Assembly (NCBI GenBank): GCA_902761225.1
Contig: CACWJQ010000004.1
Location: 1-64,000, forward strand
DNA length: 64,000 bases
Direction: 5' to 3'
Origin: an uncultured Lachnospiraceae bacterium
GTDB taxonomy: Bacteria; Bacillota; Clostridia; Lachnospirales; Lachnospiraceae
Made by a program: the position numbers and the translations under genes. The notes under the pieces are model-generated. The model made no database searches. It was given only the letters and a program-made list of their open reading frames with translations, and was not told the DNA's origin. The first letter of the stretch is position 1. Each line of letters starts with the position of its first letter. Of this stretch, positions 12,149 through 28,139 are shown piece after piece.

Positions 12149-13333
12149 ATGAAAAACAGATCGATAAGAAAGGTACTGGCCGGACTTCTGACCATAGTTA
12201 CGGTAGCGGCATTTACGGCATGCGGAAACAAGGAAAGCGGAAACGGCGGACAGTGCGACAACTGCTGCGAAAACAATGCATCAGCCGGAGCTTCTTCAGG
12301 AGCTGCTGCAGCAGGTACAGCAGGAACTGCGTCCGGATCCGAGGGCCCCGTGGAGCTCGTGAATGTGGACTTTGCTGTTTCATCCAGCGGATACGGCGGA
12401 CTTCTTCCCGTTATCGCAGCATTCGGTAACACCGATGAGGCAGTAGGACTTAACTTCGTACTTCAGAATGTGGGTACTGCAAGTGAGACCCTTGCAGCCA
12501 TCGAAAGCGGTAAGGTTAACGTTGGCGGATTCAGCGCACCTGCACCTCTTCTGTCAATAGCTTCCGGAGAATCGAACCTTATCATTATCGGCGGTCAGAT
12601 GTCCGATTACGAGTCACTGATAGTTCTTCCCAAGAATAAGGATGCATGGAGCGGAAAGCTTACCGCTGATCTTCTTGCAGGCAAGACCATTGCAGTTAAC
12701 AGAACAAACAGCGGTGACATCGCCCTCAGAGCATATCTTGCCGAAAACGGGATCGACCTTTCCACCATCAACTATGTAGAGCTTGATTCAGGAGCAAGCG
12801 TTGTGGAGGCGGTTAAGAAGGGCGAAGCCGATGCGGGTATCGTAAACGGAGGCTTCTACAAATCAGCCGAAGAGAGCGGGCTTGTAAATGTACAGTTCAT
12901 AAGAGAGATCATCGGAGATGACTTCATCTGCTGCAGACAGATGGTATCCCGCGAAGGCTTTGATGAAAACAGAGAGCTTTATGTCAAGGTTGAAAAGGCA
13001 CTGATCCTTGCATATGAGATTTATCGATCCAACCCCGATCTTGCAGTTGAGCTCGGTGCACAGTACATAACCTCATCACCTGAGGATATCAGATACATCG
13101 TTTATGAATACGGAGATCTCGGACTCAGCCCCGATCCCAATATTGCAGGTATCAAGTCCTACTACGAGGGCATGAAGCTCAGCGGATACATCGATGCCGC
13201 AACAGCACAGTCCCTTGAAGGCCACCTTGATGCATCCATCTACAAGCAGGCACTTGATGAGCTTCTTGCAGAGCAGCCTGAGAATGAATATTTCCTTGAG
13301 CTGCTTGAAGCATACAATGCCAACGATCTTTGA
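12149..13333 (+). CDS. ABC importer substrate-binding lipoprotein (NMT1/SsuA-like)
   Basis: Extracytoplasmic ligand-binding protein for the ABC importer encoded at 15595-18243. A basic start, hydrophobic core and lipobox FTAC with Cys25 mark a lipoprotein anchored to the outer face of the membrane. A Ser/Gly/Ala-rich linker (about 30-65) leads to the binding domain. Segments such as NVGTASETLAAIESGKVNVG and later GEADAGIVNGG are typical of the NMT1/SsuA/TauA clan, which binds sulfonates, nitrate or thiamine precursors. AGGAGGAT lies 8-15 bases before the ATG. The ligand cannot be read from sequence; the adjacent HcxA-like dehydrogenase and YbdL-like aminotransferase suggest a 2-hydroxy or 2-oxo acid or a related amino-acid analogue. 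Confidence 0.85.
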   Translation: MKNRSIRKVLAGLLTIVTVAAFTACGNKESGNGGQCDNCCENNASAGASSGAAAAGTAGTASGSEGPVELVNVDFAVSSSGYGGLLPVIAAFGNTDEAVGLNFVLQNVGTASETLAAIESGKVNVGGFSAPAPLLSIASGESNLIIIGGQMSDYESLIVLPKNKDAWSGKLTADLLAGKTIAVNRTNSGDIALRAYLAENGIDLSTINYVELDSGASVVEAVKKGEADAGIVNGGFYKSAEESGLVNVQFIREIIGDDFICCRQMVSREGFDENRELYVKVEKALILAYEIYRSNPDLAVELGAQYITSSPEDIRYIVYEYGDLGLSPDPNIAGIKSYYEGMKLSGYIDAATAQSLEGHLDASIYKQALDELLAEQPENEYFLELLEAYNANDL

Positions 13334-13355
13334 TGAGTAAGAAGGAGAGTTTCCC

Positions 13356-14447
13356 ATGGGAGTTATAGAAGCACCTGATAAGTATGAAAACAAAATAAGG
13401 ATAGCCGATGCCGGAGAACTGATCTCGAAGGTGGGGAGAAATGCACTTATACTTGCCGGCAGCAGAGCTTATGAGGCGGCGGGAAGATCCCTTGAGGAAA
13501 CTCTTACTTCCTCGGGAATATCCTTCAGGACCGAGATCCTGGCCGGATATCCCACTCTTTCAAGAGCACAGGCGCTGGGAGAGAGGATAAAGGCTGAGGA
13601 CTATGATCTTGTGATCGCGGTGGGAGGAGGCCGCATCATGGATCAGAGCAAGGCGGCAGCGGATTTTGGAGGAGTTCCCATAGTTACCATCCCTACGATA
13701 GCCGCCACATGTGCGGCATGGTCGGTGCTTTCCGTGCTTTATACGGAAGAAGGCGCACAGGATACATACCTGTACACGAAGGAATCACCGAAGCTGATCA
13801 TTGTCGATAAAGAGCTCATCCTTGCTGCACCGGAAAGGTATCTTATCTCCGGAGTCACCGATGCCATCGCAAAATGGTACGAGATAAGATCTAACTTTAA
13901 TGGTAATGAGTATGACCTGGAGCTCAGGCTTCAGATAAAGGTAAGCGAACTGATACTTGAGCTTCTTGAGAAGGAATTCCTCGATGCGGCATCTGCCGGA
14001 ACAGACAGCATTCCTTATCAGATAAAGAGTAATGCGGTTGATGCCAATATTTTCCTGGCAGGTCTTACCGGAAGCATTCTTGGAAATGTTCCCTACGGAG
14101 GACTGGCTCATCCCTTCTACAACAGGGCAACCCATCTCAAGGCAACCCATGTAAGACTCCACGGTGAGATAGTAAGCTTCGGAACCGAGGTGCAGCTGCT
14201 CATAGAGGGAAGGAGCGAAGACGAGATAAAACAGCGCGCCGTGAAACTCAAGGCAGTGGGAGCGCCGGTAACTCTTGAGGAACTTGGCATAACAGAAGAT
14301 GTGGAGGGATCGGTAAGATTTATCGCAAAGGGTATCCTTGAGAGAGTCGGAGATTACGCATCAGCAGAAGTAAAGCTGTCAGAGGATACGCTTACACAGG
14401 CGATCTTCAAGGCAGATGAGATAGGAAGATCATTATGCAGCCATTAA
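13356..14447 (+). CDS. Iron-containing dehydrogenase, GldA/HcxA (YbdH)-like
   Basis: NAD(P)-dependent, metal-containing dehydrogenase of the glycerol dehydrogenase superfamily. The nucleotide-binding loop GGGRIMDQSKAAA lies near residue 90. Candidate metal ligands are intact: Asp in SGVTDAIAKW, His in GGLAHPFYN and His in RLHGEIVSFG. The closest characterised pattern I can name is E. coli HcxA (YbdH), a hydroxycarboxylate dehydrogenase encoded next to the methionine aminotransferase YbdL; here too a YbdL-like gene follows, overlapping by 13 bases. I infer interconversion of a 2-oxo and a 2-hydroxy acid, but glycerol dehydrogenase cannot be excluded. AGAAGGAGAG precedes the ATG. Confidence 0.75.
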   Translation: MGVIEAPDKYENKIRIADAGELISKVGRNALILAGSRAYEAAGRSLEETLTSSGISFRTEILAGYPTLSRAQALGERIKAEDYDLVIAVGGGRIMDQSKAAADFGGVPIVTIPTIAATCAAWSVLSVLYTEEGAQDTYLYTKESPKLIIVDKELILAAPERYLISGVTDAIAKWYEIRSNFNGNEYDLELRLQIKVSELILELLEKEFLDAASAGTDSIPYQIKSNAVDANIFLAGLTGSILGNVPYGGLAHPFYNRATHLKATHVRLHGEIVSFGTEVQLLIEGRSEDEIKQRAVKLKAVGAPVTLEELGITEDVEGSVRFIAKGILERVGDYASAEVKLSEDTLTQAIFKADEIGRSLCSH

Positions 14448-15598
14448 ATCGCAGAAATAATCTGTTTTTAAGCTCCCGCATAAGGGAGATGACAATACTT
14501 GCAAATGAGCACAAGGCGATCAACCTCGCCCAGGGCTTTCCGGAGTTCGCACCTCCGGAAAAACTGACTCAGACACTTGAGAAGATTTCCACTGAGAAGG
14601 TTCATCAGTACGCACCCAACTGGGGTATAAGCGAACTCAGGGAGAAGATCGCCGAAAAACAGAGCAGGTCCTTCGGCTTTACCATAGATCCGCTAACCGA
14701 AGTTCTTGTGACCTGCGGATCCACCGAAGCGATGATCAGTTGTCAGATGGCACTCTTTAACGAAGGAGAAAAGGTTGCCATCTTTTCGCCTTACTATAAC
14801 AGCTATGAAGCCAATGCACTTATGACCGGCGTCTCACCTGTGTTCATCAATCTGGATCCCCCGGATTTCAAGCTGGATCTTAACAGGGTGGAGGATGCGT
14901 TGAAGCAGGGAGTAAAGGCACTTATCCTGTGCAATCCCGCAAATCCCGAGGGCAAGGTCTTCACAAGGGATGAACTGCTGGGAATCGCGGCACTTGCTGA
15001 GAAATATGACATTTATGTCATTACCGATGAGGTATATGAGCACATCATCTTCGAGCCCCATGTACATATCAATTTTGCATCCCTTCCCGGGATGTTCGAA
15101 AGAACCCTTACCTGCTCGTCCCTCTCCAAGACCTATTCCGTAACGGGATGGAGACTCGGGTATGTGACCGGCCCTGAGAATCTGATAAGTGAAGTCAGAA
15201 AGTATCACGATTTCTTCACAGTATGTGCCCCGACTCCGCTTCAGACGGCGGCTGTCACGGCACTGGGATTCGACAGTGAATACTATGATGAGCTTGTTTC
15301 CATCTATACCCAAAAGAGAAAGATACTTACCGAGGGGCTTGACGATATAGGCATAAGGCACACAACGCCCCAGGGCTCCTATTTCGTACTTGCCGATATC
15401 TCTGAATTCGGATATGAGTCGGATGTTGACTTTGCCCACTTCCTTGTTGAAAAGTACGGGATCGCAGGTGTTCCTGGATCATGCTTTTTTGCCGACAGGC
15501 GGAATGATTATATACGTTTTCACTTTGCAAAAAATGATGTGACACTGTATCAGGTTCTTGAGAGACTTGAGAGATTGAAAAAGAGGAAACCTCTATGA
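14435..15598 (+). CDS. PLP-dependent aminotransferase, class I/II (YbdL-like)
   Basis: Fold-type I aminotransferase of 387 residues. Typical elements: NLAQGFPEF near residue 30, NPANPEGKVF near 168, and the PLP lysine in SSLSKTYSVTGWRLGY near 232, followed by the phosphate-binding Arg. The opening NLAQGFPEF resembles the YbdL / kynurenine aminotransferase / methionine aminotransferase group more than aspartate aminotransferase. Coding overlaps the dehydrogenase before it (13 bases) and the ATPase after it (4 bases), so it belongs to the importer operon. Likely role: transamination of the imported or derived 2-oxo acid. Confidence 0.85.
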   Translation: MQPLNRRNNLFLSSRIREMTILANEHKAINLAQGFPEFAPPEKLTQTLEKISTEKVHQYAPNWGISELREKIAEKQSRSFGFTIDPLTEVLVTCGSTEAMISCQMALFNEGEKVAIFSPYYNSYEANALMTGVSPVFINLDPPDFKLDLNRVEDALKQGVKALILCNPANPEGKVFTRDELLGIAALAEKYDIYVITDEVYEHIIFEPHVHINFASLPGMFERTLTCSSLSKTYSVTGWRLGYVTGPENLISEVRKYHDFFTVCAPTPLQTAAVTALGFDSEYYDELVSIYTQKRKILTEGLDDIGIRHTTPQGSYFVLADISEFGYESDVDFAHFLVEKYGIAGVPGSCFFADRRNDYIRFHFAKNDVTLYQVLERLERLKKRKPL

Positions 15599-16437
15599 GT
15601 TCGGATAAGATAAGACTTGAAAACGTCAGCTTCAGATATCCTGATGAGGCGGGAAAGAAAAATGATAAAAAGGATGCAGCCGTCAGGGGCCAGATTGAGA
15701 ACCTGAGCTTTACCGTAAAGGAAGGCGAGTTCGTCAGTATCATCGGCGGAAGCGGATGCGGCAAGAGTACCACATTAAGCCTCATCGCAGGTCTTAATAA
15801 GCCTGACAGCGGCAAACTCTATATAGATGATAAGGAGATCGACGGACCCGGCAAGGACAGAGGCGTGGTGTTCCAACACTATGCGCTTTTCCCCTGGATG
15901 AGAGCCCGCAGAAATGTGGAGTTCGGGATCAGGCAGGTGAGAAAGCTTGAAAGGAAGGAGCTGCGTGCCACAGCCGAGAGGTATCTGGACATCGTCGGAC
16001 TTAAAGGGGAGGGCAATAAATATCCCTACCAGCTCTCCGGAGGAATGCAGCAGAGAGTATCCATCGCAAGACTCCTTGCAATGCAGACGGACATACTCCT
16101 TATGGATGAACCCTTCGGTGCGGTGGATGCCAAGAACAGGGTTATACTGCAGGATCTTCTCTTAAGACTCCTTGAGAAGGATACGGAGAAAAAGAAGACC
16201 GTTGTATTCGTAACCCACGATATCGACGAAGCCATACTTCTTTCCGACAGGATACTGTTCATGAAGGGGAGAAAGATCTACAGGGAACTGACAGTGCCCC
16301 TTCCCCATCCCAGGGACAGGGAGCTGATCGTTACATCCAAGCATTACCACGAATTCCGCAAGGAACTCTTCGCACTGTTTTATGACCTCGACGGTGAGGA
16401 CCGCTATGAAAATAAAAATATCGAGTATTTTATATAG
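15595..16437 (+). CDS. ABC importer ATP-binding protein (SsuB/TauB type)
   Basis: Cytosolic ATPase driving the importer. Walker A GGSGCGKSTT near residue 52, Q-loop VVFQHYALFPW, signature LSGGMQQRV near 143, Walker B ILLMDEPFGAVDA, and the switch His in VFVTHDIDEA. The Q-loop and the MDEPFGAVDA form are typical of nitrate/sulfonate/taurine importers. The start overlaps the aminotransferase stop (ATGA). The C-terminus overlaps the first permease by about 32 bases. Confidence 0.92.
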   Translation: MSSDKIRLENVSFRYPDEAGKKNDKKDAAVRGQIENLSFTVKEGEFVSIIGGSGCGKSTTLSLIAGLNKPDSGKLYIDDKEIDGPGKDRGVVFQHYALFPWMRARRNVEFGIRQVRKLERKELRATAERYLDIVGLKGEGNKYPYQLSGGMQQRVSIARLLAMQTDILLMDEPFGAVDAKNRVILQDLLLRLLEKDTEKKKTVVFVTHDIDEAILLSDRILFMKGRKIYRELTVPLPHPRDRELIVTSKHYHEFRKELFALFYDLDGEDRYENKNIEYFI

Positions 16438-17332
16438 GACAATCCCTCATATTCTCTTTGTATCCCTGCTTGTGCTGAGCCTGCTTCAGGTTCATACAAA
16501 GGGATTGAAGCCAATGCTTCCCTTTATTGTCCTGGTGGCAGGGCTGGAGGTGCTTTCCATCCTGCTGTATAAAAAGTGGGAGATACCCGCCATTATGGAT
16601 ATCATCTTTACTTTCATAACGGCCTGGTTCGTGTATGCCAATTATCTCAATACCAGAGTCGCTTTCCTGTTCCCTGCCCCCAATGTGGTGGTGGAGATAT
16701 TCTGGGGCGATGTCCTGCTAATAATAAAGTCCATCGTATCTTCCTTCAAGCTGCTTGTCCTCGGTTTTTTCATCGCAATAGTGCTTGGTGTCGGATTCGG
16801 GCTTATATGCGGTAACGTAAAGAGACTCCGCAACATGCTCCTTCCCGTTGCAGAGATACTTTCCGCCATACCTGCGCTTGTATATGCGCCCTATGCCATT
16901 GCTGTCCTTCCTTCATTCTGGGCGGCGGGACTTTTTGTCATAAGCAGCGGTCTGTTCTGGCCCATATTCATCAATACCATGAAGACCGTAAGCAATCTGG
17001 ACAAGGAACTCTATGACTACACAAGAACCCTTAAGCTGAGCAAATGGGATCTGCTCTATAGGGTGATGCTGCCCTACTGCACACCCGGACTTTTCAATAC
17101 CCTTACAATGCAGATCTCCAGTGCTTTCATGCTCCTTATAGGCGCGGAGATGATGGGCATGACAAGCGGTGTTGGCTGGTATGTAAAATATTATGTGGAC
17201 TTTTCCGTTTATAAGAAGGTTCTTGCAGGCTTCATCACTATCGGAATCCTTGTATCGATAGTAAATGCATGTATGACTCTGGTGAAAAGGAGGGCTCTGG
17301 TATGGGTGGATACCAAACGACAGAATATATAA
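16406..17332 (+). CDS. ABC importer permease 1 (SsuC/TauC type)
   Basis: Inner-membrane permease of the importer, about 308 residues with six or more hydrophobic segments. A short N-terminal pair of helices precedes the BPD_transp_1 core. The EAA-type cytoplasmic loop appears as DYTRTLKLSKWDLLYRVMLPYCTPG. The ATG at 16406 (MKIKISS) is preferred over the upstream in-frame start because GGTGAGG lies just before it. It overlaps the ATPase gene before it and the second permease after it. Two related permeases in one operon suggest a heterodimeric channel. Confidence 0.88.
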   Translation: MKIKISSILYRTIPHILFVSLLVLSLLQVHTKGLKPMLPFIVLVAGLEVLSILLYKKWEIPAIMDIIFTFITAWFVYANYLNTRVAFLFPAPNVVVEIFWGDVLLIIKSIVSSFKLLVLGFFIAIVLGVGFGLICGNVKRLRNMLLPVAEILSAIPALVYAPYAIAVLPSFWAAGLFVISSGLFWPIFINTMKTVSNLDKELYDYTRTLKLSKWDLLYRVMLPYCTPGLFNTLTMQISSAFMLLIGAEMMGMTSGVGWYVKYYVDFSVYKKVLAGFITIGILVSIVNACMTLVKRRALVWVDTKRQNI

Positions 17333-18243
17333 GATCATTCCGGCCTGTGAGAGTGCCCTCTGCAACCGTTCCCTTTGCTGTATGTATCGCGGTGATCCTG
17401 ATAACTCTTCTTGTTCCGGGAAGAGCAGAGAATGAGAGCAGTATCCCCTTTGTCATCCTGCTTGCGGGCATGGGTGCGTCCCTTATTTTCTTTGTGAAAA
17501 AACAGTCTTCCAGAGATATATACACATTGCTGTTCGTACTCCTGGGAGCCTGGGAACTGGCAACCGCCAAGACCACCGGCAATCTGTCATATCTTACCCC
17601 CACACCGGAAATGGTCCTGTATACCTACATATCCGATCATGAGATGATCCTTAAGGGAATAGGTACCACCTGCAGATTCCTTGCCTGCGGCTTTATCCCG
17701 GGGATCGTGATAGCGGTTTTTCTGGGGATCCTGACAGGATGGAGCATGCGCGCGCAGAAGATACTCCTTCCCATTGTGAAGGTGCTGACTCCCATTCCGC
17801 CTCTCATCTACACACCCTATCTGGTGGTGATCCTTCCCAGCTTTTTCGCCGCTTCGGTGGGGATAATATTCCTCAGCGTGTTCTGGTGCCTTTATATCAA
17901 CATGATATTTGTCATCTCGGGAATGGATCCGAAGCTGGTGGATATGACCAGGGTCATGAACGTGGGACCTGTTACAAGGTTCTTCAGGATACTGCTGCCT
18001 TATGCGCTTCCCGGTATTTTCGACAGACTTCCTCTGGCACTGACTGCGGCATTCATGGTCCTGTTCAATGCGGAGATGATCGGAAATGCCATGTCCGGAA
18101 TGGGATATTATATACAGTTCAATGCAAGATTTGCTGAGTATACCAAGGTTGTCTCGGGAATAATACTGGCAGGGGTCTTTATCGGGCTGGTGAATTCACT
18201 GTTCCGCAAGGCAAAGAGGGCTGTGATAGGATGGAAGAACTGA
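17302..18243 (+). CDS. ABC importer permease 2 (SsuC/TauC type)
   Basis: Second inner-membrane permease, 313 residues, homologous to the preceding one: PLIYTPYLVVILPSFFAA parallels ALVYAPYAIAVLPSFWAA of permease 1. The EAA-type loop is DMTRVMNVGPVTRFFRILLPYALPG. AAAAGGAGGG at 17285-17293 places the start at the ATG at 17302; a longer reading would lack a ribosome-binding site. It overlaps permease 1 by 31 bases and is the last gene before the terminator at 18323-18365. Confidence 0.88.
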   Translation: MGGYQTTEYIRSFRPVRVPSATVPFAVCIAVILITLLVPGRAENESSIPFVILLAGMGASLIFFVKKQSSRDIYTLLFVLLGAWELATAKTTGNLSYLTPTPEMVLYTYISDHEMILKGIGTTCRFLACGFIPGIVIAVFLGILTGWSMRAQKILLPIVKVLTPIPPLIYTPYLVVILPSFFAASVGIIFLSVFWCLYINMIFVISGMDPKLVDMTRVMNVGPVTRFFRILLPYALPGIFDRLPLALTAAFMVLFNAEMIGNAMSGMGYYIQFNARFAEYTKVVSGIILAGVFIGLVNSLFRKAKRAVIGWKN

Positions 18244-18365: not shown

Positions 18366-18425
18366 ATCGTATATTAAAGTAGACTTTTTGTCTGAATATT
18401 TCATGTTTTGCCGGGAGAATTCTTT

Positions 18426-20786
18426 ATGGCCGATTGGATCATAGTGGTCGATGACGATACCAGTAATCTGAAAATGGCGGGTCACATCCTCAGCAAGGCT
18501 AACATGCGTGTAACGGCTCTTAAGTCCGGACAGGCACTGTTGGATTATGTGAAGGATAAGGGAACCCCCGATCTTATACTTCTTGATATAAACATGCCGG
18601 GAATGGACGGCTTCGAGACTCTGATGAAGCTCAGAAGCTACGAGTCCGAAGCAGGATTCGAGGAAGTCCCGGTGATCTTCCTTACAGCAGATGACAATGC
18701 AGATACAGAGACCATGGGTTTTGAGGTCGGAGTCTCCGACTATATCAAGAAACCCTTCGATCCCGCTGTTCTTCTCAGGAGGATAGGCAATATCCTATCC
18801 AAGCAGGAGAAGATGCTCAATCTCAAGGTTGAGGCTACAAGGGATAAGCTTACGGGCTTTCTTAACAAGATGTCAGGAAAGCATGAGTTCACCAATCTCT
18901 GTGCATCAAAGCGCGGCTCGCTCCTGATGATCGATCTTGATTCCTTCAAGCTTGTGAACGATATATACGGTCACGATATGGGAGACCGGGTGCTGGAAAG
19001 CTTTGCCGGCATACTGTCGGAGAGCGTGCCGGCAGGGGGCGTATGTGCCCGTATGGGAGGAGATGAGTTCGAAGCATTCCTTCCCGAGGTTACGGATGAA
19101 AGGCTTATAACTGCCCTTTCCGATACCCTCAATGACAGACTTGTGGAGGAAGCTAAAAAGCTCATGGGAGACAGCATGGAGATTCCTCTTGGCTGCTCCA
19201 TAGGGTGCTGTACCGTTCCCAAGTTCGGACGTGAATATGAGGATCTTACCAAGCTTGCCGACAAGGCACTGTATAAGGTGAAGAAGCAGGGCAAGCACGG
19301 ATGCATCATGTACAGCCCCGATATATTCGATGACGAGGATGAGGGACAGGATGCGCATATCGACACCGTGACCAAGATACTGGAGGAGAGGTCCATCCCC
19401 AATGCGGCACTGTGCCTTGATAAGGATTCCTTTGCATATGTATACCGCTACATCATGAGATATATAAGCAGGAATCAGAGGACTGCCTGCAATGTCATGA
19501 TCGATCTTAACTCCGATGAGGATGAGGAGGTCTTCTCCAGGCTGTGCGATGAATTCGGAGAGCATGTTGGAGGATCGCTCCGCAAATCGGACCTGTTCAT
19601 GCGCACCAGATCCAACCGTTACTTCATACTTCTTTCCGATGTGCGTGAGGATTCCGTAGGCAAGGTCATAGACGATCTTATCAGAGTGTGGCAGGAGCAT
19701 CACGGGGATAAGGTCAGGATCACTTATGAAACTGAATTCATCGGTTCCGAGAAAAAGAAGATCAGATCCACCGATGAGGTCAGGATCGTGGTTGTCGATG
19801 ACGATATAGCCAATCTTCAGATGGCCGGACACATACTCAGCAAGGCGGGCTTCTATGTTACGGCGCTTAAGTCCGGACAGCTCCTGCTGGAGCATCTGGA
19901 CAAGAACATCCCCGATGCCATACTGCTGGATATCAATATGCCCGGAATGGACGGTTTCGAGACTCTTACCAAGATCCACAACATGGAAAGGGAGATTTCC
20001 GACATTCCTGTCATATTCCTGACTGCGGACGAAAGTGAAGAGGCTGAGAGAAAATGTCTTGCACTGGGAGCTATGGACTTTATCAAGAAGCCCTTTGTTC
20101 CGGAGGTCCTGCTTCTGAGAGTGCGTCACATAGTAGAGCTGGTCAGACTGCAGAGGTCTCTGAGCAATCAGGTTGAGAAGAAGACAAGAGAGAATAAGAA
20201 CCTGTTCCTTCACGTGGTACAGGCCCTTGCAGAGGCGATAGATACCAAGGATCCGTATACCAACGGACATTCTGCCCGTGTGGCCAAGTATTCCAGAGAG
20301 ATCGCAAGGAGATACGGTTACAAGGATAAGCAGCTTGATGATATCTACATCATCGGACTGCTCCATGACCTTGGCAAGATACTTGTGCCCAGCGAGATCA
20401 TAAGCAAACCCGGAAGACTGACTGATGAGGAGTATGAGATCATAAAGCAGCATCCCACAAACGGTGCGAGGATACTTGAGAACATAAAGGAAATGCCCAC
20501 CCTTGCCGTCGGAGCAAGATGGCATCATGAGCGGTATGCCGGAGGAGGATATCCCGACGGTCTTATGGGAGAGGATATCCCGGAGGAAGCAAGGATAATC
20601 GCCGTGGCAGATGCATATGATGCAATGAGCAGCAGGCGCAGCTACAGGGGAGTGCTTCCGCAGGATGTGGTCAGGGATGAGATAGAAAAGGGTAAGGGAA
20701 TACAGTTCGATCCCGAATTCGCGGATATCATGCTCAGAATGATCGATGAGGATTCCGGATATACCATGTGCGAACATGATACATGA
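18426..20786 (+). CDS. REC-GGDEF-linker-REC-HD-GYP c-di-GMP turnover protein
   Basis: Single cytosolic protein of 786 residues that should both make and degrade c-di-GMP. Order: REC1 (1-125, acceptor Asp about 53 in LLDINMPGMDG), diguanylate cyclase with intact GGDEF (about 211), a 100-residue linker, REC2 (about 455-580, also LLDINMPGMDG), and an HD-GYP phosphodiesterase (about 605-786) with HDLGK near 647 and HHERYAGGGYPDG near 700. The two REC domains are near-copies (both MAGHILSKA and VTALKSGQ), showing internal duplication. No RxxD inhibitory site precedes GGDEF. GGGAGAA 8 bases upstream selects the ATG at 18426 over the TTG at 18408. It heads the signalling operon with two hybrid kinases. 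Confidence 0.9.
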   Translation: MADWIIVVDDDTSNLKMAGHILSKANMRVTALKSGQALLDYVKDKGTPDLILLDINMPGMDGFETLMKLRSYESEAGFEEVPVIFLTADDNADTETMGFEVGVSDYIKKPFDPAVLLRRIGNILSKQEKMLNLKVEATRDKLTGFLNKMSGKHEFTNLCASKRGSLLMIDLDSFKLVNDIYGHDMGDRVLESFAGILSESVPAGGVCARMGGDEFEAFLPEVTDERLITALSDTLNDRLVEEAKKLMGDSMEIPLGCSIGCCTVPKFGREYEDLTKLADKALYKVKKQGKHGCIMYSPDIFDDEDEGQDAHIDTVTKILEERSIPNAALCLDKDSFAYVYRYIMRYISRNQRTACNVMIDLNSDEDEEVFSRLCDEFGEHVGGSLRKSDLFMRTRSNRYFILLSDVREDSVGKVIDDLIRVWQEHHGDKVRITYETEFIGSEKKKIRSTDEVRIVVVDDDIANLQMAGHILSKAGFYVTALKSGQLLLEHLDKNIPDAILLDINMPGMDGFETLTKIHNMEREISDIPVIFLTADESEEAERKCLALGAMDFIKKPFVPEVLLLRVRHIVELVRLQRSLSNQVEKKTRENKNLFLHVVQALAEAIDTKDPYTNGHSARVAKYSREIARRYGYKDKQLDDIYIIGLLHDLGKILVPSEIISKPGRLTDEEYEIIKQHPTNGARILENIKEMPTLAVGARWHHERYAGGGYPDGLMGEDIPEEARIIAVADAYDAMSSRRSYRGVLPQDVVRDEIEKGKGIQFDPEFADIMLRMIDEDSGYTMCEHDT

Positions 20787-20831: not shown

Positions 20832-23546
20832 ATGGGGCAGGATAAAGAGGAAAAAGAGGTATTTGATACCGCGCATATGACCATACTCATATGCTTTACG
20901 GTACTGTCGGTGATACTGATAATAGAATCGTTTCTGATGTCCTGGGAAAAATGGGCCGTGATACTTATCCTCGCAGGGATATGCTTTGCATGGACTCTGC
21001 ATATCCAGCAGACCATCCCCGCAAGGTCCAGGCTTTGGGTCTATTCCGTACTGATGATGATCATCTACTTCTACTACGGAACCCATCTTACAAGCACCTT
21101 CGATGCCGCGCTGATAATGGTGCTGGTGATAATGATCTTCACCATGACAGGCATGAAGTCTCTTAACAGGCTGTGTCAGGCCACCTACTATATCACCTTT
21201 GCGTTCGATATTTTTACAATGATACTGGACGGCCAGGAGTTCGATACCCTTACCGTCTCAAGAGCCGTTATGCATGTCATAGTAGTGACCATAGCGGGAT
21301 GGGTCGGAAGGATCATCATAGATAACTGGTCAAGGGTTCTGGACAGATCCCGCGTGGAGATAGAAGAGCTCAAGAATGCCACACAGAGACTGGACAATTT
21401 CCTTGCGAATGTTTCCCATGAGATAAGGACTCCCGTCAATGCGGTCATGGGTCTTTCATCTGTAATGGAGAAAGAAGAACTTCCCGAGCAGGTGATCGGT
21501 AATATCAGGGCCATATCCGGAGCGGGCCACAGGGTATCGGAACAGATAGGAGATATTCTCGATTTCACCGAAATAGACATGGGCAAGCTCACGGTCACCC
21601 GCGAGACTTACATGATCAATTCTCTCGTAAACGATCTGCTGGTACAGCTTTCCTTTGCAGAAGATTACGGTCTTGAACTCGTTATAGACATGGATCCACT
21701 TATTCCCGCAGAGCTTGTGGGAGACGCCAGCAAGATCAAGAAGATACTCTGGCATCTTATCTGTAACGGTTATAAATTCACCAAAGAGGGCGGAGTCTAC
21801 GTCCATATATATCCCATCAAAAGAGAATACGGCATCAACCTGGTGCTGGAGGTTACTGACACCGGTATCGGCATGAGCGCCGAGGAGATAGACAGGGCTT
21901 ATGAGAAGTTCTATCAGTCGGATTCCGGCAAGACCAGGACCGCAGGCGGTCTCGGACTGGGCATTCCCATAGTAAACGGCTTTACCAAGGCAATGAACGG
22001 CGTTCTTGCAATAGAGAGTGAAGAGAACGAAGGAACCACGGTGAGAGTCAGCATCCCCCAGGGTGTTGACGATGCATCGCCCTGCATTTCCGTCAGGGAC
22101 CGCGATAACTGTGTGGTTATAGGATTCCTGGGATTCATGACCACAGGGCATCAGAGCGTAAGAGAATTCTACATGAGGATGATAGCCAATATCGTCAGGG
22201 GATTCGGGGTTCCGTTTAAGAGAGTACAGTCCAGGGATGAGCTTAAGAGGATGATAGATTCCGAGAGGATAACTCATGTGTTCATCGGAACCGGAGAGTA
22301 TCTTGAGAACAGGGATTATGTGGATGAGATCGCAGGTGAGATGAATGTTGCGGTTGTGGCCGACAGGGATTTCCACGGTGAAGTCGGACGCGGAGTCTCC
22401 CTTCTTCCCAAGCCCTTCTACGGCGGCCAGATAGCTAATTTCCTCAACCATGCATTTGACGGAAAAGAAAATAATGCAGGCGAGAGGATGACCTGCCCGG
22501 GACTTAAGGTTCTTGTGGTTGATGATGAACCCATGAACCTTCTTGTCGCAAGAGGAATATTCGAGACATACGGCATGGTGGTGGATACCGCGCCCGGCGG
22601 ACGCGAGGCCATCGAGATGTGCTCTGTCAAGGATTACGGAGTAGTGTTCATGGACCATATGATGCCGGAGATGGATGGCGTGGAGGCCATGAAGAGGCTC
22701 AGGATGAACGCATCAAGGATGCATAAGGAGATATGCATTGTTGCCCTTACCGCCAATGCCATAAGCTCGGCCAAGGAGATGTTCATGTCCGAAGGCTTCG
22801 ACGGATTTATCCCCAAGCCCATTGAGATCACCGAGTTCGAGAGAGTCATGAAGAGGATCCTTCCCAAATCTGCAATAGTCTACGAGAAGATCGAAGCAGA
22901 ATCCGGATCTCCCGCAGCTGCCGGACGTTCGGAGAACAGGGTGATTACAGCGGAGCTTACAGCCGGTGAGGATAAAACCCGCGGGGATGGTGATCCCGGC
23001 AGAAAGGGCATAACCGGCGTGAAGAATGTCCCGGGAGAGACCTACGGATCCGGAAGGAAGGGTAAAAATGCAGGAGATGACAGATCTGTCAATGGTGGCG
23101 GAAGACTCTCGGAGCTTGCACAGTACGGGGTGGATACCAACGGAGGACTAAGGTACTGCGGCGGAGATGAAGATTTCTATGCCCAGGTTCTTGCGGAGTA
23201 TGCAAAGGATCCGGAAAGCAGACTGAAGGAGCTTAATGACCTCTATGAAAAGGAAGACTGGCATGAGTATTCCATCCGTGTACATGCCATCAAGAGTACT
23301 TCGAAAATGATAGGTGCCTCAGCCCTGTCGGATATGGCCAGGGAACTGGAGGAATATTCGAAGAAGGATGATGAACCATCCATAAGAAAGCTGCATCCTG
23401 ACTTTGTGCCGAAGTATGAGGCATTACTGGTTGCGATAAACAGACTGGTCGGACCGGGTGAGGATTCAGGTGATGATGAGATCATGGAATTTGACCCCGA
23501 AGGTGATGATGAGATCATGGAGTTTGCTCCGGAGGAAGAGTCATGA
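20832..23546 (+). CDS. Membrane hybrid histidine kinase with REC and Hpt
   Basis: Sensor kinase of 904 residues. About six N-terminal membrane helices (15-175) are followed by a short helix, HisKA with phospho-acceptor His near 196 (NVSHEIRTP), and HATPase with DTGIGM and GGLGLG motifs. A degenerate receiver-like region (about 425-545) lacks the usual DD/D set. A true REC follows (about 555-680, VVDDEP, acceptor in FMDHMMP near 607). After a Gly/Lys-rich low-complexity linker (about 690-755) comes an Hpt domain with HAIKST near 817. A repeated acidic tail DDEIMEF ends the protein. It is coupled to the next kinase by a 4-base overlap. No sensor domain is obvious beyond the helices. Confidence 0.88.
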   Translation: MGQDKEEKEVFDTAHMTILICFTVLSVILIIESFLMSWEKWAVILILAGICFAWTLHIQQTIPARSRLWVYSVLMMIIYFYYGTHLTSTFDAALIMVLVIMIFTMTGMKSLNRLCQATYYITFAFDIFTMILDGQEFDTLTVSRAVMHVIVVTIAGWVGRIIIDNWSRVLDRSRVEIEELKNATQRLDNFLANVSHEIRTPVNAVMGLSSVMEKEELPEQVIGNIRAISGAGHRVSEQIGDILDFTEIDMGKLTVTRETYMINSLVNDLLVQLSFAEDYGLELVIDMDPLIPAELVGDASKIKKILWHLICNGYKFTKEGGVYVHIYPIKREYGINLVLEVTDTGIGMSAEEIDRAYEKFYQSDSGKTRTAGGLGLGIPIVNGFTKAMNGVLAIESEENEGTTVRVSIPQGVDDASPCISVRDRDNCVVIGFLGFMTTGHQSVREFYMRMIANIVRGFGVPFKRVQSRDELKRMIDSERITHVFIGTGEYLENRDYVDEIAGEMNVAVVADRDFHGEVGRGVSLLPKPFYGGQIANFLNHAFDGKENNAGERMTCPGLKVLVVDDEPMNLLVARGIFETYGMVVDTAPGGREAIEMCSVKDYGVVFMDHMMPEMDGVEAMKRLRMNASRMHKEICIVALTANAISSAKEMFMSEGFDGFIPKPIEITEFERVMKRILPKSAIVYEKIEAESGSPAAAGRSENRVITAELTAGEDKTRGDGDPGRKGITGVKNVPGETYGSGRKGKNAGDDRSVNGGGRLSELAQYGVDTNGGLRYCGGDEDFYAQVLAEYAKDPESRLKELNDLYEKEDWHEYSIRVHAIKSTSKMIGASALSDMARELEEYSKKDDEPSIRKLHPDFVPKYEALLVAINRLVGPGEDSGDDEIMEFDPEGDDEIMEFAPEEES

Positions 23547-26215
23547 GGGACCGGCTTAAGAAAATATACGAAGAGATACTGAGTCCCGGAAGAACGTTTC
23601 AGGAGAAGCTGTTCGTCATCCTGACGGTTATAGCCGAGATCGCAGTTCTGCTTGTGTTCATCGGTGATATCGTCATCGGCGATGCTTTTATCGAGATAGC
23701 GTGCCTTGGACTTGTGCTCATACTGTCACTGCCCATCACGTATCTGTCCACCAAAAAGAGGAGGACCGATATCGGAGCGATATGCATAACCATAGGGGTT
23801 GTGTTTGTGGTGCTCCCTGTGACTTACTTCTTCGGAGGAGGCATAACGGGAGGCTCTGATCTGTGGTTCACCTTTGCATTCCTGTATGTAGGTCTGATAC
23901 TGGTGGGAAGGCAGCGTAAGGTTATGCTCACTCTCCTTACAATGCTGATAATTGCCGAATATACCATTGACTATCTGAATCCTTCGCTGCTTGAACGCCA
24001 TACCAGGAAGATGATGATAGAGGACCGTGCCGTATCTGCGATCCTTGTGGGTTTCATTGTATACATAATGGTATATCTCCTGAACAAGATGTTCGAGTGG
24101 GAGAACGAAAAGACGGCAAGACAGGCACAGGAGATCGAGGAGCTCAACAAGGCGCAGAACAGATTCTTTTCCAGTATGAGCCATGAGATCCGCACCCCCA
24201 TCAACACCATAATAGGACTTAATGAGATGATACTCAGGGAGGATATCTCTGACGAAGTGGCTGATGATGCAAGGAATATCCGCTCCGCTTCCAAGATACT
24301 CCTGTCACTCATTAACGATATCCTTGATATGTCCAAGATCGAATCCGGCAAGATGGACATCGTGAATGCCCCCTATGATGTGGGCGGAATGCTGTCAGAG
24401 ATAGTCAACATGATCTGGGTGAGAGCTGATGAAAAGGGCTTAAGATTTACCCTGGATGTGGATCCCAGCCTTCCCTCATCCCTTGTGTCGGATGAAGTGC
24501 GTATCAAGCAGATACTTATCAACCTGCTTAATAACGCAGTCAAGTATACCCGCGAGGGAAGCGTTGCCCTGTCAATACACTGCCGCAGGACCGAAAAGAG
24601 CAGGGTTCTGGTGACATATTCCGTTGAAGATACCGGAATGGGTATACGTAAGGAGAGTATTCCCTATCTGTTCGATGCTTTCAGACGTGAGGACGAAAGA
24701 GCCAACAGATACATCGAAGGAACCGGACTGGGACTTTCCATAGTAAAACAGCTTGTGGACCTTCTCGGAGGCGAGATATCAGTAAACAGTATCTATACAA
24801 AGGGTTCCACCTTTGTATTTACGCTGGAGCAGGAGATATCCGATGAGAAGGCCATAGGTAAATATGAACCCGGCAAGTACCGCGGGAGTAAGGGCTCCGA
24901 TTACCATCAGGTCTTCGAAGCACCCAAGGCCAAGGTCCTTATCGTGGATGACAATACCGCAAACCTTCTGGTCGCCACCAAACTGCTGAGAAATACCAGG
25001 GTACAGATAAAGACTGCAACAAGCGGAGAGGCGGCTCTGAAAGAAACAGCTGCCGACCATTACAATATCATACTCATGGATCACATGATGCCCGGAATGG
25101 ATGGCATACAGTGTCTGCATGCCATCAGGGAACAGGCCGGAGGTCTCTGCAAGGATACGCCTGTTGTGGTGCTCACTGCCAATTCCGGATCGGAGAATCA
25201 GGCCATGTACAGAAGAGAAGGCTTTGATGCATATCTTCTCAAGCCTGTTGAATCACTTGAGCTTGAAAAGACCCTTCTCGAATTCCTTCCCGAGGACCTT
25301 GTGCAGAGAAAGGACGATGACAGTACCAGATTCGAATCCGATGTGATAGTAAGACAGATGAGAAAGAAGATCCCTGTTCTGATAACAACAGACAGTATAT
25401 GCGATCTTCCAAGGAGTCTGACACGATCCCTCAAGATCCCTGTGCTTCCTTACAAGGTATATACGGATAAGGCTGTATTTTCCGACGGAGTTGAGGCGGA
25501 GGGTGATGTGGTCCTCAGGTATCTGGGCAAGAATGATTCTCTTGCAAGAAGTGAGGCTCCGGAGCCGTCGGATTACGAGGCGTTCTTTGCGGAGCAGCTT
25601 TCATATGCCCAGCATATTATCCATATCGCTCTTGCCAAAAATGCAAGCCGCGGTTATGCCAATGCATGTGAAGCGGCCCTCAGTTTCTATAATGTCAAGG
25701 TGTTCGACTCGGGATCTCTTTCCAGCGGAACCGGGCTGGTGGTGCTTGCTGCAAAGGCTATGGTGGACGGAGGACAGACTGACACCGATGTCATAATCAG
25801 GGAGCTGGAGAAGGTAAGGCCGAAGGTCAGCACCAGTTTTATCATGGACACCACCGAATATCTGTACCGCGGAGGAAGGATGCCTGAAACCATCTACAAG
25901 ATGTGTAATGCATTCCTGCTGCATCCCGTTATAGAACTGGATAAGAGCTCCATGTCCACCGGCGGCATCATAGTCGGAAACCGCGCAAGGTACAGAAGGC
26001 GCTATATCGAGAAGACGCTGAAGAATCCCTCGGAGATAGATACATCGGAACTCTTTATAACCTATGTGGGACTTAAGAGTTCTGAGATAGAAGAGATAAA
26101 AGAAGAGGTCCTTAAGAAAGTTCCGTTCGAGAAGATATACGTTCAGAAGGCTACCACAGCAATCTCCATCAACTGCGGCCCCGGAACATTCGGTTTATTA
26201 TTTAAGAGGAAATGA
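23543..26215 (+). CDS. Membrane hybrid histidine kinase-REC fused to a DegV domain
   Basis: 890 residues with an unusual order: five or six membrane helices (about 20-180), coiled-coil, HisKA (SMSHEIRTPIN, His near 213), HATPase (DTGMGI, GTGLGLS), REC (about 470-595, VDDNTANL, acceptor in LMDHMMPGMDG near 512), then a complete DegV/EDD-fold domain from about 610 to the end (starts ITTDSICDLP; later MDTTEYLYRGGRMPE and CGPGTFGLLF). Stand-alone DegV/FakB proteins bind fatty acids and hand them to fatty acid kinase. The usual TSQP and SSGLSGT ligand segments are altered here (ARSEAPEPS, KNASRGYAN). I infer a kinase reporting on, or controlled by, an acyl ligand. The frame is continuous through the junction. 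Confidence 0.85.
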   Translation: MRDRLKKIYEEILSPGRTFQEKLFVILTVIAEIAVLLVFIGDIVIGDAFIEIACLGLVLILSLPITYLSTKKRRTDIGAICITIGVVFVVLPVTYFFGGGITGGSDLWFTFAFLYVGLILVGRQRKVMLTLLTMLIIAEYTIDYLNPSLLERHTRKMMIEDRAVSAILVGFIVYIMVYLLNKMFEWENEKTARQAQEIEELNKAQNRFFSSMSHEIRTPINTIIGLNEMILREDISDEVADDARNIRSASKILLSLINDILDMSKIESGKMDIVNAPYDVGGMLSEIVNMIWVRADEKGLRFTLDVDPSLPSSLVSDEVRIKQILINLLNNAVKYTREGSVALSIHCRRTEKSRVLVTYSVEDTGMGIRKESIPYLFDAFRREDERANRYIEGTGLGLSIVKQLVDLLGGEISVNSIYTKGSTFVFTLEQEISDEKAIGKYEPGKYRGSKGSDYHQVFEAPKAKVLIVDDNTANLLVATKLLRNTRVQIKTATSGEAALKETAADHYNIILMDHMMPGMDGIQCLHAIREQAGGLCKDTPVVVLTANSGSENQAMYRREGFDAYLLKPVESLELEKTLLEFLPEDLVQRKDDDSTRFESDVIVRQMRKKIPVLITTDSICDLPRSLTRSLKIPVLPYKVYTDKAVFSDGVEAEGDVVLRYLGKNDSLARSEAPEPSDYEAFFAEQLSYAQHIIHIALAKNASRGYANACEAALSFYNVKVFDSGSLSSGTGLVVLAAKAMVDGGQTDTDVIIRELEKVRPKVSTSFIMDTTEYLYRGGRMPETIYKMCNAFLLHPVIELDKSSMSTGGIIVGNRARYRRRYIEKTLKNPSEIDTSELFITYVGLKSSEIEEIKEEVLKKVPFEKIYVQKATTAISINCGPGTFGLLFKRK

Positions 26216-26216
26216 T

Positions 26217-28139
26217 ATGGGAATACCTTATTTTGACATTGCCGCTCTTCCTATCTTTTTCCTGATATTCTGGACCATCGTCCTTAGAAAGATGACCAGG
26301 GGAAGGTGCAACGTTCTGTATCTTGCGGTCATAGTGCTGTCCATGATCGCAGATACCAGCGAGATCATTGAGAAGGTCATAACATTTTACAATACGCCGC
26401 TTACACCGGAACAGATGAACATAGTAAAATTCTTCAACAATCTTTACTATGTTACAAGGAATGCGGTCAACCTTTCCTATGTTTTCTTCATAATCGCGAT
26501 AACGAGGACCTGGTACAGGATAGAGCCCTTCTGGAAGAAGCTCCTTATATGCCTGCCCTATCTGGGCATCCTCGGATTCCTGATCTACAACATACCCACT
26601 TCCTACGTATTCGCCGTAACTCCCAATGAGGGTTATCAGAGAGGTGCGGGAGTTGTCTTTACATATTCATTCGCATTTATCTACCTGATGTTCGGAGTGA
26701 CATATCTGCTGAAATACAGGCGGACCATCGACTGGGGAACATGGCTGGCACTCATGTCCATGTATTTCTTCAACTTCATCGCGGTCATCGTGCAGCTGAT
26801 ATTCTGGGGCATCCAGATTGAATCCTTCGCCACATCCCTTACCCTGTTCTTCGTAGTCGTCTTCGTGCAACGGCCTGAGAAAAAGGTGGACCTGAGTACG
26901 GGTCTTCCGGGATACCCTTCCTTCTGCGAAGAGATCGGTAAGATCAAGGCCACAGGTCATGATGTAAAGGTGGTGATCATCACCATGAAGAACGCCCTGG
27001 AGATGCACAGGTATCTGGGTGAGAAGCCTTACTATGAGTATGTCCACTCCATCGAAGACCTGATCAAGACGTATGCCAGAAAGGAAAAGGTCGTATACGA
27101 ACTCTATTTTGAACAGCCCGGCATATTCTACATAATCCTTGAGGATAAGGAATATAATCCCATCAATGCGGTTGCGGAGCTGAGGGAGATTGTCAAGAAG
27201 CACAACTCGGATATAGTCAAAAAGGGCGCATCCCCGGATCTCAGCGTTGTTACGGTGGTATTTCCCGAAGAGATCTCAACGCCTGAAGAGCTGTTTGATT
27301 TCGGACATAATTACGTGAAATTCTCCAGCATGGATAAGAAATTCGCCAGAGCTTCATCCATCATATCCCAGAGGTCATATCAGATAGAGACTCATATAGG
27401 AGAGATACTCGGGGAAGCGATTGAGAAGGGTACCATCAGCGTTAAGCTCGAACCTGTGTGGTCCCTTGCGGAAAAGAAGTTCATATGTGCCGAGGCACGT
27501 GCCGAGCTGGTGGATGAAAAGTACGGAGAGATTGATGCGGATCTCCTGGATTCCGTGGCGGATGAGAAGGGCATGGGGATCCTCCTTGGAGATTTTGTTC
27601 TGGACAGGGCTTTTATGCATGCTACCGAAAGTGCACTGGCAGAATCAGGATATTCCTATATCGTGATAACACTTTCCACATCCCAGTGCATGCAGGTGAG
27701 CCTGACAGACCGCATCTGGGAGACCAGGGAAAAATACGGAGTTCACCCCGAACGTATATGCTTTGCCATTAAGGAATCCGCATATGAAAATATGAGCAGC
27801 GTCTTTGAGGAGAATATACAGAAGCTGTCAATGCAGGGCTATCATATCGGACTTGACGGATTCGGAAAGGGATATTCCGATATCAGGCATGTCATCGAAC
27901 TTCCGGTAGAACTTGTAAGACTTGACAGAGGACTGCTCCGCATGGCTCTGGAAGAAAAAGGAAAGGCGATGCTTGAGGGCTGTATCCGAATGCTGAGCGG
28001 AATTCCCATGAAGGTTGCGGCTTACGGGGTGGATGACGAGGAAACGGCGGAGATGCTCCAAAGCATGGGATGTGACATGATAGAGGGAAGATATATGCCG
28101 GGCATGACGGCAGACGGGGATGCCCCGGGGGAGGAATGA
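26217..28139 (+). CDS. 7TM protein with degenerate GGDEF and degenerate EAL domains
   Basis: 640 residues. Seven hydrophobic helices (about 5-225) precede a GGDEF-like domain with no GGDEF signature (the region reads YELYFEQPGIFYI) and an EAL-like domain (about 395-635). In the latter the catalytic EAL is replaced (CAEARAEL near 424) and the DDFG metal site reads LDGFGKGYSD near 545. Both activities are therefore probably lost, leaving a c-di-GMP-binding or scaffold role. It begins 1 base after the kinase-DegV gene and overlaps the next small gene, so it is part of the same operon. The membrane half resembles the N-terminus of the kinase at 63167. Confidence 0.8.
   Translation: MGIPYFDIAALPIFFLIFWTIVLRKMTRGRCNVLYLAVIVLSMIADTSEIIEKVITFYNTPLTPEQMNIVKFFNNLYYVTRNAVNLSYVFFIIAITRTWYRIEPFWKKLLICLPYLGILGFLIYNIPTSYVFAVTPNEGYQRGAGVVFTYSFAFIYLMFGVTYLLKYRRTIDWGTWLALMSMYFFNFIAVIVQLIFWGIQIESFATSLTLFFVVVFVQRPEKKVDLSTGLPGYPSFCEEIGKIKATGHDVKVVIITMKNALEMHRYLGEKPYYEYVHSIEDLIKTYARKEKVVYELYFEQPGIFYIILEDKEYNPINAVAELREIVKKHNSDIVKKGASPDLSVVTVVFPEEISTPEELFDFGHNYVKFSSMDKKFARASSIISQRSYQIETHIGEILGEAIEKGTISVKLEPVWSLAEKKFICAEARAELVDEKYGEIDADLLDSVADEKGMGILLGDFVLDRAFMHATESALAESGYSYIVITLSTSQCMQVSLTDRIWETREKYGVHPERICFAIKESAYENMSSVFEENIQKLSMQGYHIGLDGFGKGYSDIRHVIELPVELVRLDRGLLRMALEEKGKAMLEGCIRMLSGIPMKVAAYGVDDEETAEMLQSMGCDMIEGRYMPGMTADGDAPGEE

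Follow-up and report, generated by a model that had tools for sequence, protein, structure and literature searches.

A kinase pair with a built-in DegV domain

Paired signalling kinases in which one member has a DegV fold built into it are common in Lachnospiraceae gut bacteria. Here we describe such a pair in an uncultured Lachnospiraceae bacterium (assembly GCA_902761225.1), where it lies in positions 1 to 64,000 of contig CACWJQ010000004.1, a stretch of 64,000 nucleotides that we refer to as the window. HHK2 (23543–26215), a hybrid histidine kinase of 890 amino acids with a C-terminal DegV domain, is encoded by a single open reading frame with no internal stop codons and is conserved in other genomes. 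Immediately upstream lies the gene for a partner hybrid kinase, HHK1 (20832–23546), whose stop codon overlaps the HHK2 ATG by 4 bases; both genes are on the forward strand. HHK1 consists of an N-terminal region, HisKA and HATPase domains, a segment that we label REC-like (it has no domain match of its own), a REC domain and a histidine phosphotransfer (Hpt) domain.

HHK2 begins with six helices (residues 1–195; 23543–24127) that in the predicted structure form what is presumably a membrane domain; this region has no Pfam match, and in the model of the full protein the sixth helix extends into a signalling helix. It is followed by HisKA (residues 204–269; 24152–24349), HATPase_c (residues 317–430; 24491–24832) and REC (Pfam Response_reg, residues 465–577; 24935–25273), and then by a linker (25274–25375), in which residues 591–607 are modelled with a predicted local distance difference test (pLDDT) score below 50. 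The DegV/EDD domain occupies residues 612–887 (25376–26203) and has the fold of FakB with changed head-group and docking residues. The Pfam DegV model (PF02645) matches residues 612–887 with 140.6 bits (E 8.4e-41; cut-off 27) over model positions 2–277 of 280, and NCBIfam TIGR00762 matches with 154.7 bits (cut-off 99.7), so that the domain belongs to the DegV family by near-full-length matches above both curated cut-offs. The 2.7-Mb genome that contains the window has five DegV matches; that in HHK2 scores lowest (144.1 bits), and no other lies in a long frame. Because Pfam detects nothing in HHK2 beyond HisKA, HATPase_c, Response_reg and DegV, the DegV domain is the sole recognised soluble ligand-binding domain of the protein.

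By its sequence HHK2 is a hybrid histidine kinase with intact catalytic residues in HisKA, HATPase and REC, and is predicted to be active. An alignment of 34 full-length proteins shows no variation at the phospho-acceptor H214, at N327 and N331, in the G boxes or at D469, D470, D513, T545 and K567; the catalytic set including D363, G365, G367 and G393 is likewise invariant in the 34, and 99–100% conserved across 78 pairs (a set that excludes two loci without a partner kinase, L137 and L146). HHK1 conserves its own phosphotransfer residues at 97–100% over the same pairs. The best NCBIfam kinase models on HHK2 are BarA and TorS, both far under their cut-offs. HHK2 shares the HisKA-HATPase-REC order of hybrid kinases of the BarA, TorS and LuxQ type, but differs from them in its C-terminal DegV domain and in that Hpt resides on the partner kinase or, in some loci, on the DegV protein.

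An earlier note on this DNA, made from its letters and open reading frames, had read one continuous frame of membrane helices, HisKA, HATPase, REC and a full DegV domain, and had proposed a Pfam search, a survey of genomes and a structure prediction as checks; each of these, together with the Pfam domains of the whole protein, agrees with that reading. Using the 290-amino-acid DegV part of HHK2 as query, we found DegV within open reading frames of at least 700 amino acids in at least 59 places, in at least 46 of 299 Lachnospiraceae genomes, which rules out a frameshift or frame artefact at the REC-DegV junction. A kinase domain is also present, as judged by phmmer, in all 58 of these DegV proteins outside the window. 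The frame length is kept in two other assemblies (890 amino acids in locus L066 and 891 in L067), whose DegV domains are 90% and 87% identical to that of the window.

A scan of public genome contigs, covering close relatives only, added 36 loci, of which 34 are fusions and two (L100 and L101) are not. By record name 17 of the 36 are Lachnospiraceae, 7 are Butyrivibrio, Acetatifactor or Lachnoclostridium, and 12 are Ruminiclostridium, Ruminococcus or Clostridia/Clostridiales; some may repeat species among the 299 family genomes. When the order was searched beyond this family with a profile built from 43 fused domains, a single long fusion turned up among 246 genomes (genome G821, of a different family), a protein of 919 amino acids that adjoins a partner kinase (L237). 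Its tree distance to Lachnospiraceae sequences is 0.40, and this closeness makes a recent transfer or a misplaced contig possible. Among the matches listed for 299 genomes of the phylum, frames of at least 700 amino acids occur only in three Lachnospiraceae genomes, the window's own included. Among the papers listed in searches of the open-access literature on DegV together with kinases, response regulators, c-di-GMP (cyclic di-GMP) or Lachnospiraceae, we found no description of a DegV-kinase fusion, most subscription papers falling outside these searches. In the accessible portions of PMC9912610, DegV and "hybrid histidine kinase" both occur, unconnected, and in those of PMC12594616 DegV appears in the reference list only. 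The architecture is thus real, conserved and apparently undescribed, although it is very likely visible in automatic annotation since HHK2 passes the TIGR00762 cut-off.

A FakB-like fold with altered residues

The structure of the DegV domain, modelled from a 43-sequence alignment, has a pLDDT of 93.3 and a predicted template modelling (pTM) score of 0.91. In a Foldseek search of the PDB all chains at ranks 1–45 are DegV or FakB proteins, many of them titled as carrying a bound fatty acid (for 2dt8, E 8.6e-27 and template modelling (TM) scores of 0.84/0.87). At greater distance the fold resembles DhaQ of Lactococcus lactis (a DhaK-like co-activator, 2iu4/2iu6; TM 0.56/0.50). DhaQ is a kinase-family ligand fold turned regulator, and it partners a transcription factor, not a histidine kinase. 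The C-terminal domain of FakA (PF13684) is also a DegV-like fold within a larger protein (6w6b, E 3.7e-08), as the relevant passage of PMC10146087 likewise states for FakA. All five fused or Hpt-linked proteins that were scanned match the DegV model (123–150 bits), and only one of them, L146, also touches FakA-like_C (24 bits).

In FakB1, according to the relevant parts of PMC8892158 and PMC9136124, Thr62, Ser95, Ser171 and His270 hold the carboxylate of the fatty acid, Arg173 is required for the kinase chemistry and Arg205 binds FakA and the membrane. We mapped these residues through printed alignments together with our own. The window has S670 at the position of Thr62, A698 at Ser95, K699 at Ser96, V811 at Arg205 and N877 at His270, which bears out the earlier note's observation that the usual TSQP and SSGLSGT segments are changed. 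At the four carboxylate positions the window thus has Ser, Ala, Gly and Asn, so the FakB network is not retained, whereas Arg173 is present. Position 171 is uninformative, as Gly occurs there in 3/3 paralogues from the same genome that keep Arg205 and His270 and in 33/34 stand-alone domains.

To place these changes we compared 93 fused domains (92, of which 78 are below 80% identity so that near-duplicates remain, plus L237) with 18 domains of a sister stand-alone subfamily, hand-picked from the top stand-alone matches and therefore closer to the fusions than a random sample. At the Arg205 position, Arg is found in 2/93 fused domains, in 18/18 sisters and in 34/35 canonical stand-alone domains, the last being a set that over-represents canonical residues (4 from the window's genome, 30 best Pfam matches and L221). 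A hydroxyl at the Thr62 position is largely kept (Ser in 72 and Thr in 9, or 81/93; Thr in 18/18 sisters), and the Ser96 position has Lys in 47/93 and Ser in 21/93 fused domains, as against Ser in 13/18 sisters. Six tunnel positions were mapped, F263 being included only via the title of a mutant structure. V162 and L191 correspond to hydrophobic residues in 92/93 and 91/93 fused domains, A121 is bulkier (Leu in 68/93, and in 18/18 sisters), and L271 is Cys in 70/93 (18/18 sisters). Judged from these positions, the character of the tunnel is kept and its shape altered.

The genome that contains the window encodes FakA (FakA-like_C, 306 bits; C3:53379-54026) and, roughly 2.3 kb away, a stand-alone DegV protein with canonical residues (L003, C3:56299-57147); three of its four stand-alone DegV genes keep Arg205 and His270. 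The fused domain is therefore not required for fatty-acid kinase function in this genome. The fourth gene (L004, G000:C15:41835-42635) has Ile at the Arg205 position and Tyr at that of His270, so that losses at these positions are not unique to the fusions, and its product may not serve FakA either.

In a tree of 150 domains (FastTree, the one tree method used) the 93 fused domains form one clade together with L120 and L128, with moderate support (0.848), and a clade of these with the sisters and L100 has support of 0.993. Because the fused domains form one clade, a single capture of the domain, out of a stand-alone subfamily, is probable, with the FakA-docking Arg lost near the same branch. 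The nearest relatives, the sister subfamily L219–L236, come from several families of the phylum and often have HCGPN and K-x-R-G. A brief look at the starts of some proteins encoded next to the sister genes revealed no recurrent informative gene, and two of these neighbours look by eye like TetR regulators. Two other DegV-containing frames came to light: a 591-amino-acid fusion (L238, G765:C1:4779172-4780008), whose N-terminal half resembles by eye the DhaL part of FakA and which is possibly a single-chain FakA-FakB, and a DegV match within a 598-amino-acid frame in genome G707.

Placement of Hpt in the kinase pair and a frequent c-di-GMP neighbourhood

For gene order we examined 95 loci (the window, L066–L099 and L102–L161), from which the stand-alone DegV loci L100 and L101 had been excluded beforehand; gene calls within them are our longest-frame calls. 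The gene upstream of that for the DegV protein encodes an HHK1-type hybrid kinase in 84/95 loci (71 with Hpt and 13 without); in the others it is an HHK1 fragment (5), a contig end (2) or something else (4). The 4-base overlap of the window recurs in 39/84 loci, and in 62/84 the two genes overlap or abut. Across 78 pairs the HHK1 and HHK2 distances have a correlation of 0.88, as against at most 0.16 in permutations, which speaks for joint inheritance only.

The partner kinase and its Hpt went unnoticed in the earlier note. In the window the Hpt domain of HHK1 is recognised by PF01627 (32.6 bits) and phosphotransfer through it is predicted. None of the 71 pairs with an Hpt-bearing HHK1 has Hpt on both partners. 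Of the 13 HHK1 proteins scored as lacking Hpt, one (L120) was miscounted, its Hpt-bearing HHK1 sitting one gene further away; among the 12 true cases 10 carry the domain on the DegV protein, while in L121 the next gene encodes it and in L161 a small gene nearby. The Hpt-bearing DegV proteins mostly form a class of 1100–1170 amino acids, and PF01627 was confirmed in L115 and L128. One Hpt is thus shared per pair, on either protein, and this is the best evidence here that both kinases work in one relay. A stricter rule of exactly one Hpt per module was dropped on recount, since further Hpt genes occur near some pairs.

DegV follows REC in most members, at a distance of 21–30 residues. In L128 an HK-REC gene overlaps by 8 bases a gene for a DegV-Hpt protein (414 amino acids), and a REC-GGDEF gene follows; in L161 the DegV domain is N-terminal, before the membrane part, in a frame that runs to the contig end. 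Each of these variants is known from a single assembly and may reflect a frame break. L120, which might be taken for a true split of DegV from kinase, was rejected as such: its two frames share 74 bases and meet within a run of A, so that it has an apparent frameshift, error or real. In two further loci (L137, 7290–9878, and L146, 7451–10063) DegV is on an HHK1-like kinase with no REC detected and no partner kinase upstream; L146 has no HisKA match in Pfam, and genes with GGDEF matches come after both fusions.

Upstream of HHK1 in the window, a gene for a REC-GGDEF-REC-HD-GYP protein (18408–20786, forward strand), in which GGDEF, HD and HHE..GYP motifs are present, is the likely phosphorelay output. 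The commonest gene in this second upstream position is indeed one for a REC-linked c-di-GMP enzyme, found in 45/95 loci (REC-HD-GYP in 28, the window type in 12, REC-GGDEF in 5); the remainder have a lone REC (11), a methyl-accepting chemotaxis protein (MCP; 8), or another gene or none (31). All REC-containing HD-GYP (42/42) and GGDEF (30/30) proteins of the retrieved loci have intact motifs, dual proteins being counted twice. An adjacent REC-linked c-di-GMP enzyme with intact motifs is therefore found in the window, as in many but not all loci. A GGDEF, HD-GYP or EAL gene lies within 5 kb in 62/95 fused loci as compared with 1/18 sister loci, a comparison limited by truncated flanks at many loci and by the origin of the sisters in other families. 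The window's genome has 36 GGDEF and 14 HD_5 matches in 2.7 Mb, and because it is so rich in such genes we estimate the chance of finding a c-di-GMP gene within such a stretch at about 0.2. The link to c-di-GMP drawn in the earlier note thus recurs and is common, but a universal linkage is ruled out. Its further claim of co-transcription with c-di-GMP enzymes is in keeping with the tight same-strand spacing, from which it may be inferred, but draws nothing from scans for promoters (19 against 15.0, standard deviation 4.1) and terminators (7 against 7.2, standard deviation 3.0), which are at background level.

Downstream, after a 1-base gap and on the same strand, lies a gene for an EAL-domain protein (26217–28139; EAL match of 135 bits). 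By eye it has EAR for EAL, and DGFG in place of DDFG, which we take to be the expected EAL motif; the DGFG form recurs in L066, L067, L073 and L074 and was not found in L068. Given these changed signature residues, the protein is perhaps not a phosphodiesterase but a non-catalytic c-di-GMP reader. In eight loci (L136, L143, L144, L149, L150, L152, L153 and L155) an MCP gene directly precedes the kinase pair, preceded in turn by CheA and CheW in L149, the only locus confirmed with Pfam; the MCP loci possibly form a chemosensory branch. Further upstream in the window, before the c-di-GMP gene and on the same strand, 12149–18243 holds genes for a binding protein (Phosphonate-bd/NMT1 match), an ATP-binding cassette (ABC) ATPase and two permeases; an Fe-ADH-like gene and another gene are interspersed among them.

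Possible roles of the fused domain

We give a probability of about one half to the reading that the DegV domain serves a two-kinase phosphorelay as its built-in lipid sensor and operates without FakA docking. HHK1 and HHK2 would work as one complex, within which the DegV domain would be a cytoplasmic input that binds an acyl chain or another hydrophobic ligand; whether it is loaded or empty would set the balance of kinase and phosphatase activity in the pair and hence the flow of phosphate, which would start at the HisKA histidines, move through the REC domains to Hpt on either partner and end at a separate output protein with REC, in many loci a c-di-GMP enzyme. A lipid-sensing function is plausible from the sequence, and the suggestion in the earlier note that such a kinase could sense acyl chains remains a reasonable one for a DegV/FakB fold inside a hybrid kinase with intact catalytic residues. 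Like S. aureus FakB1 and FakB2 and B. subtilis DegV, the fused domain has the full DegV/EDD fold, mostly hydrophobic tunnel positions and the hydroxyl of Thr62; unlike them it sits on a kinase, lacks Arg205 in 91/93 members and has Asn for His270 in 85/93. As the docking Arg is lost in nearly all fusions and kept in all 18 sisters, handover to FakA is unlikely, and the earlier proposal that phosphorylation controls acyl handover does not hold up in the FakA sense.

Several observations weigh against a lipid sensor of this kind. A C-terminal position is unusual for an input domain, and the full-length single-chain model of HHK2 has a pTM of 0.47, so that its domain packing is uninformative. At the Ser95 position the fused domains have Ala in 51/93 and Ser in 26/93 (Gly in 9 and Ser in 9 of the 18 sisters); Arg173 is kept in 57/93 and in 18/18 sisters, 36/93 differing; and His, present at the His270 position in 18/18 sisters, is found in 1/93. 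At tunnel position A158, 78/93 have Thr or Ser and only 14/93 a hydrophobic residue, although this column may be misaligned or variable, since canonical domains have His there in 23/35. Because head-group residues, Arg173 and A158 differ, acyl binding may be changed or lost. Loss of His270 in itself does not disprove fatty-acid binding, as FakB3 (6cng) has Tyr there in a record titled as loaded with linoleic acid. The relay, too, may not be closed and side branches are possible, because in 8/71 loci (L072, L082, L093, L098, L102, L103, L119 and L154) another Hpt-bearing gene lies within five genes. Finally, a gene for a solute-binding lipoprotein directly follows HHK2 in 16/95 loci (L076, L077, L079, L080, L081, L083–L086, L088–L091, L095, L097 and L105; one homologue query, with SBP_bac_3 in 3/3 tested), and in those 16 a second, extracytoplasmic signal is likely.

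That last observation would also suit a reading in which the true signal is an extracytoplasmic solute that a binding protein hands to the membrane domain, with DegV a minor modulator, and the binding protein and ABC transporter genes upstream in the window point the same way. We consider it unlikely, however: in 79/95 loci the gene immediately after the kinase is not of this kind (by the same single query, 2/95 having no downstream gene in view), and it leaves the retention of DegV unexplained. Much the same low weight goes to the idea that the DegV domain binds no small ligand and provides a docking or dimerisation surface that holds together both kinases and Hpt. Such a scaffold would accommodate the tolerance of DegV position (mostly after REC, N-terminal in L161, on the Hpt protein in L128), the drift of head-group residues such as Arg173, and the joint inheritance of the kinases, although shared ancestry alone would give the same correlation; it has less to say about the nearly constant hydrophobicity at V162 and L191, and about Asn877 (85/93) and His794 (75/93), whose conservation at mapped head-group positions goes beyond the needs of a plain scaffold.

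A non-lipid or head-group-modified ligand, for example an acyl phosphate or other anionic metabolite, is a slightly less probable candidate again. It would fit the Lys at FakB1 position 96 where most sisters have Ser, the Asn for His270, the replacement by His, in 75/93, of the Lys before the conserved Pro, and the Leu at A121 and Thr or Ser at A158, even though the sisters share that Leu in 18/18. Set against it are the remaining mapped tunnel positions, which are largely hydrophobic, and the ligands named in the listed DegV structure titles, all of which are fatty acids or lipids. Least probable by far is that DegV is an output, opened or closed by REC phosphorylation so as to control fatty-acid uptake or release. 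The domain does occupy the output position of a response regulator, a short distance past REC, but the FakA-docking Arg is lost, the intervening linker is of low confidence in the model, and Hpt and separate REC output genes offer the relay another exit. Because DegV has three placements (after REC, in L161 and in L128), we regard it as an autonomous binding or docking unit, not a REC-driven output.

To a wider and more tentative reading we lend clearly less than even odds: that this widespread Lachnospiraceae kinase class directly reads, with its captured domain, free or membrane-derived fatty acids into c-di-GMP, or in some members into chemosensory signalling, via a two-kinase relay. The known role of DegV proteins is that of soluble carriers of fatty acids for lipid synthesis, and family-wide use of the fold in sensor kinases would be a different one. 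Because the pocket residues are changed, single proteins would suffice to test the question, and the natural series of layouts, in which Hpt is on one or the other partner, DegV is N- or C-terminal, or DegV is joined to Hpt alone, lends itself to studies of phosphorelay rewiring. If a lipid is bound, the pair would couple lipid state directly to c-di-GMP, and perhaps to biofilm or motility, in gut bacteria.

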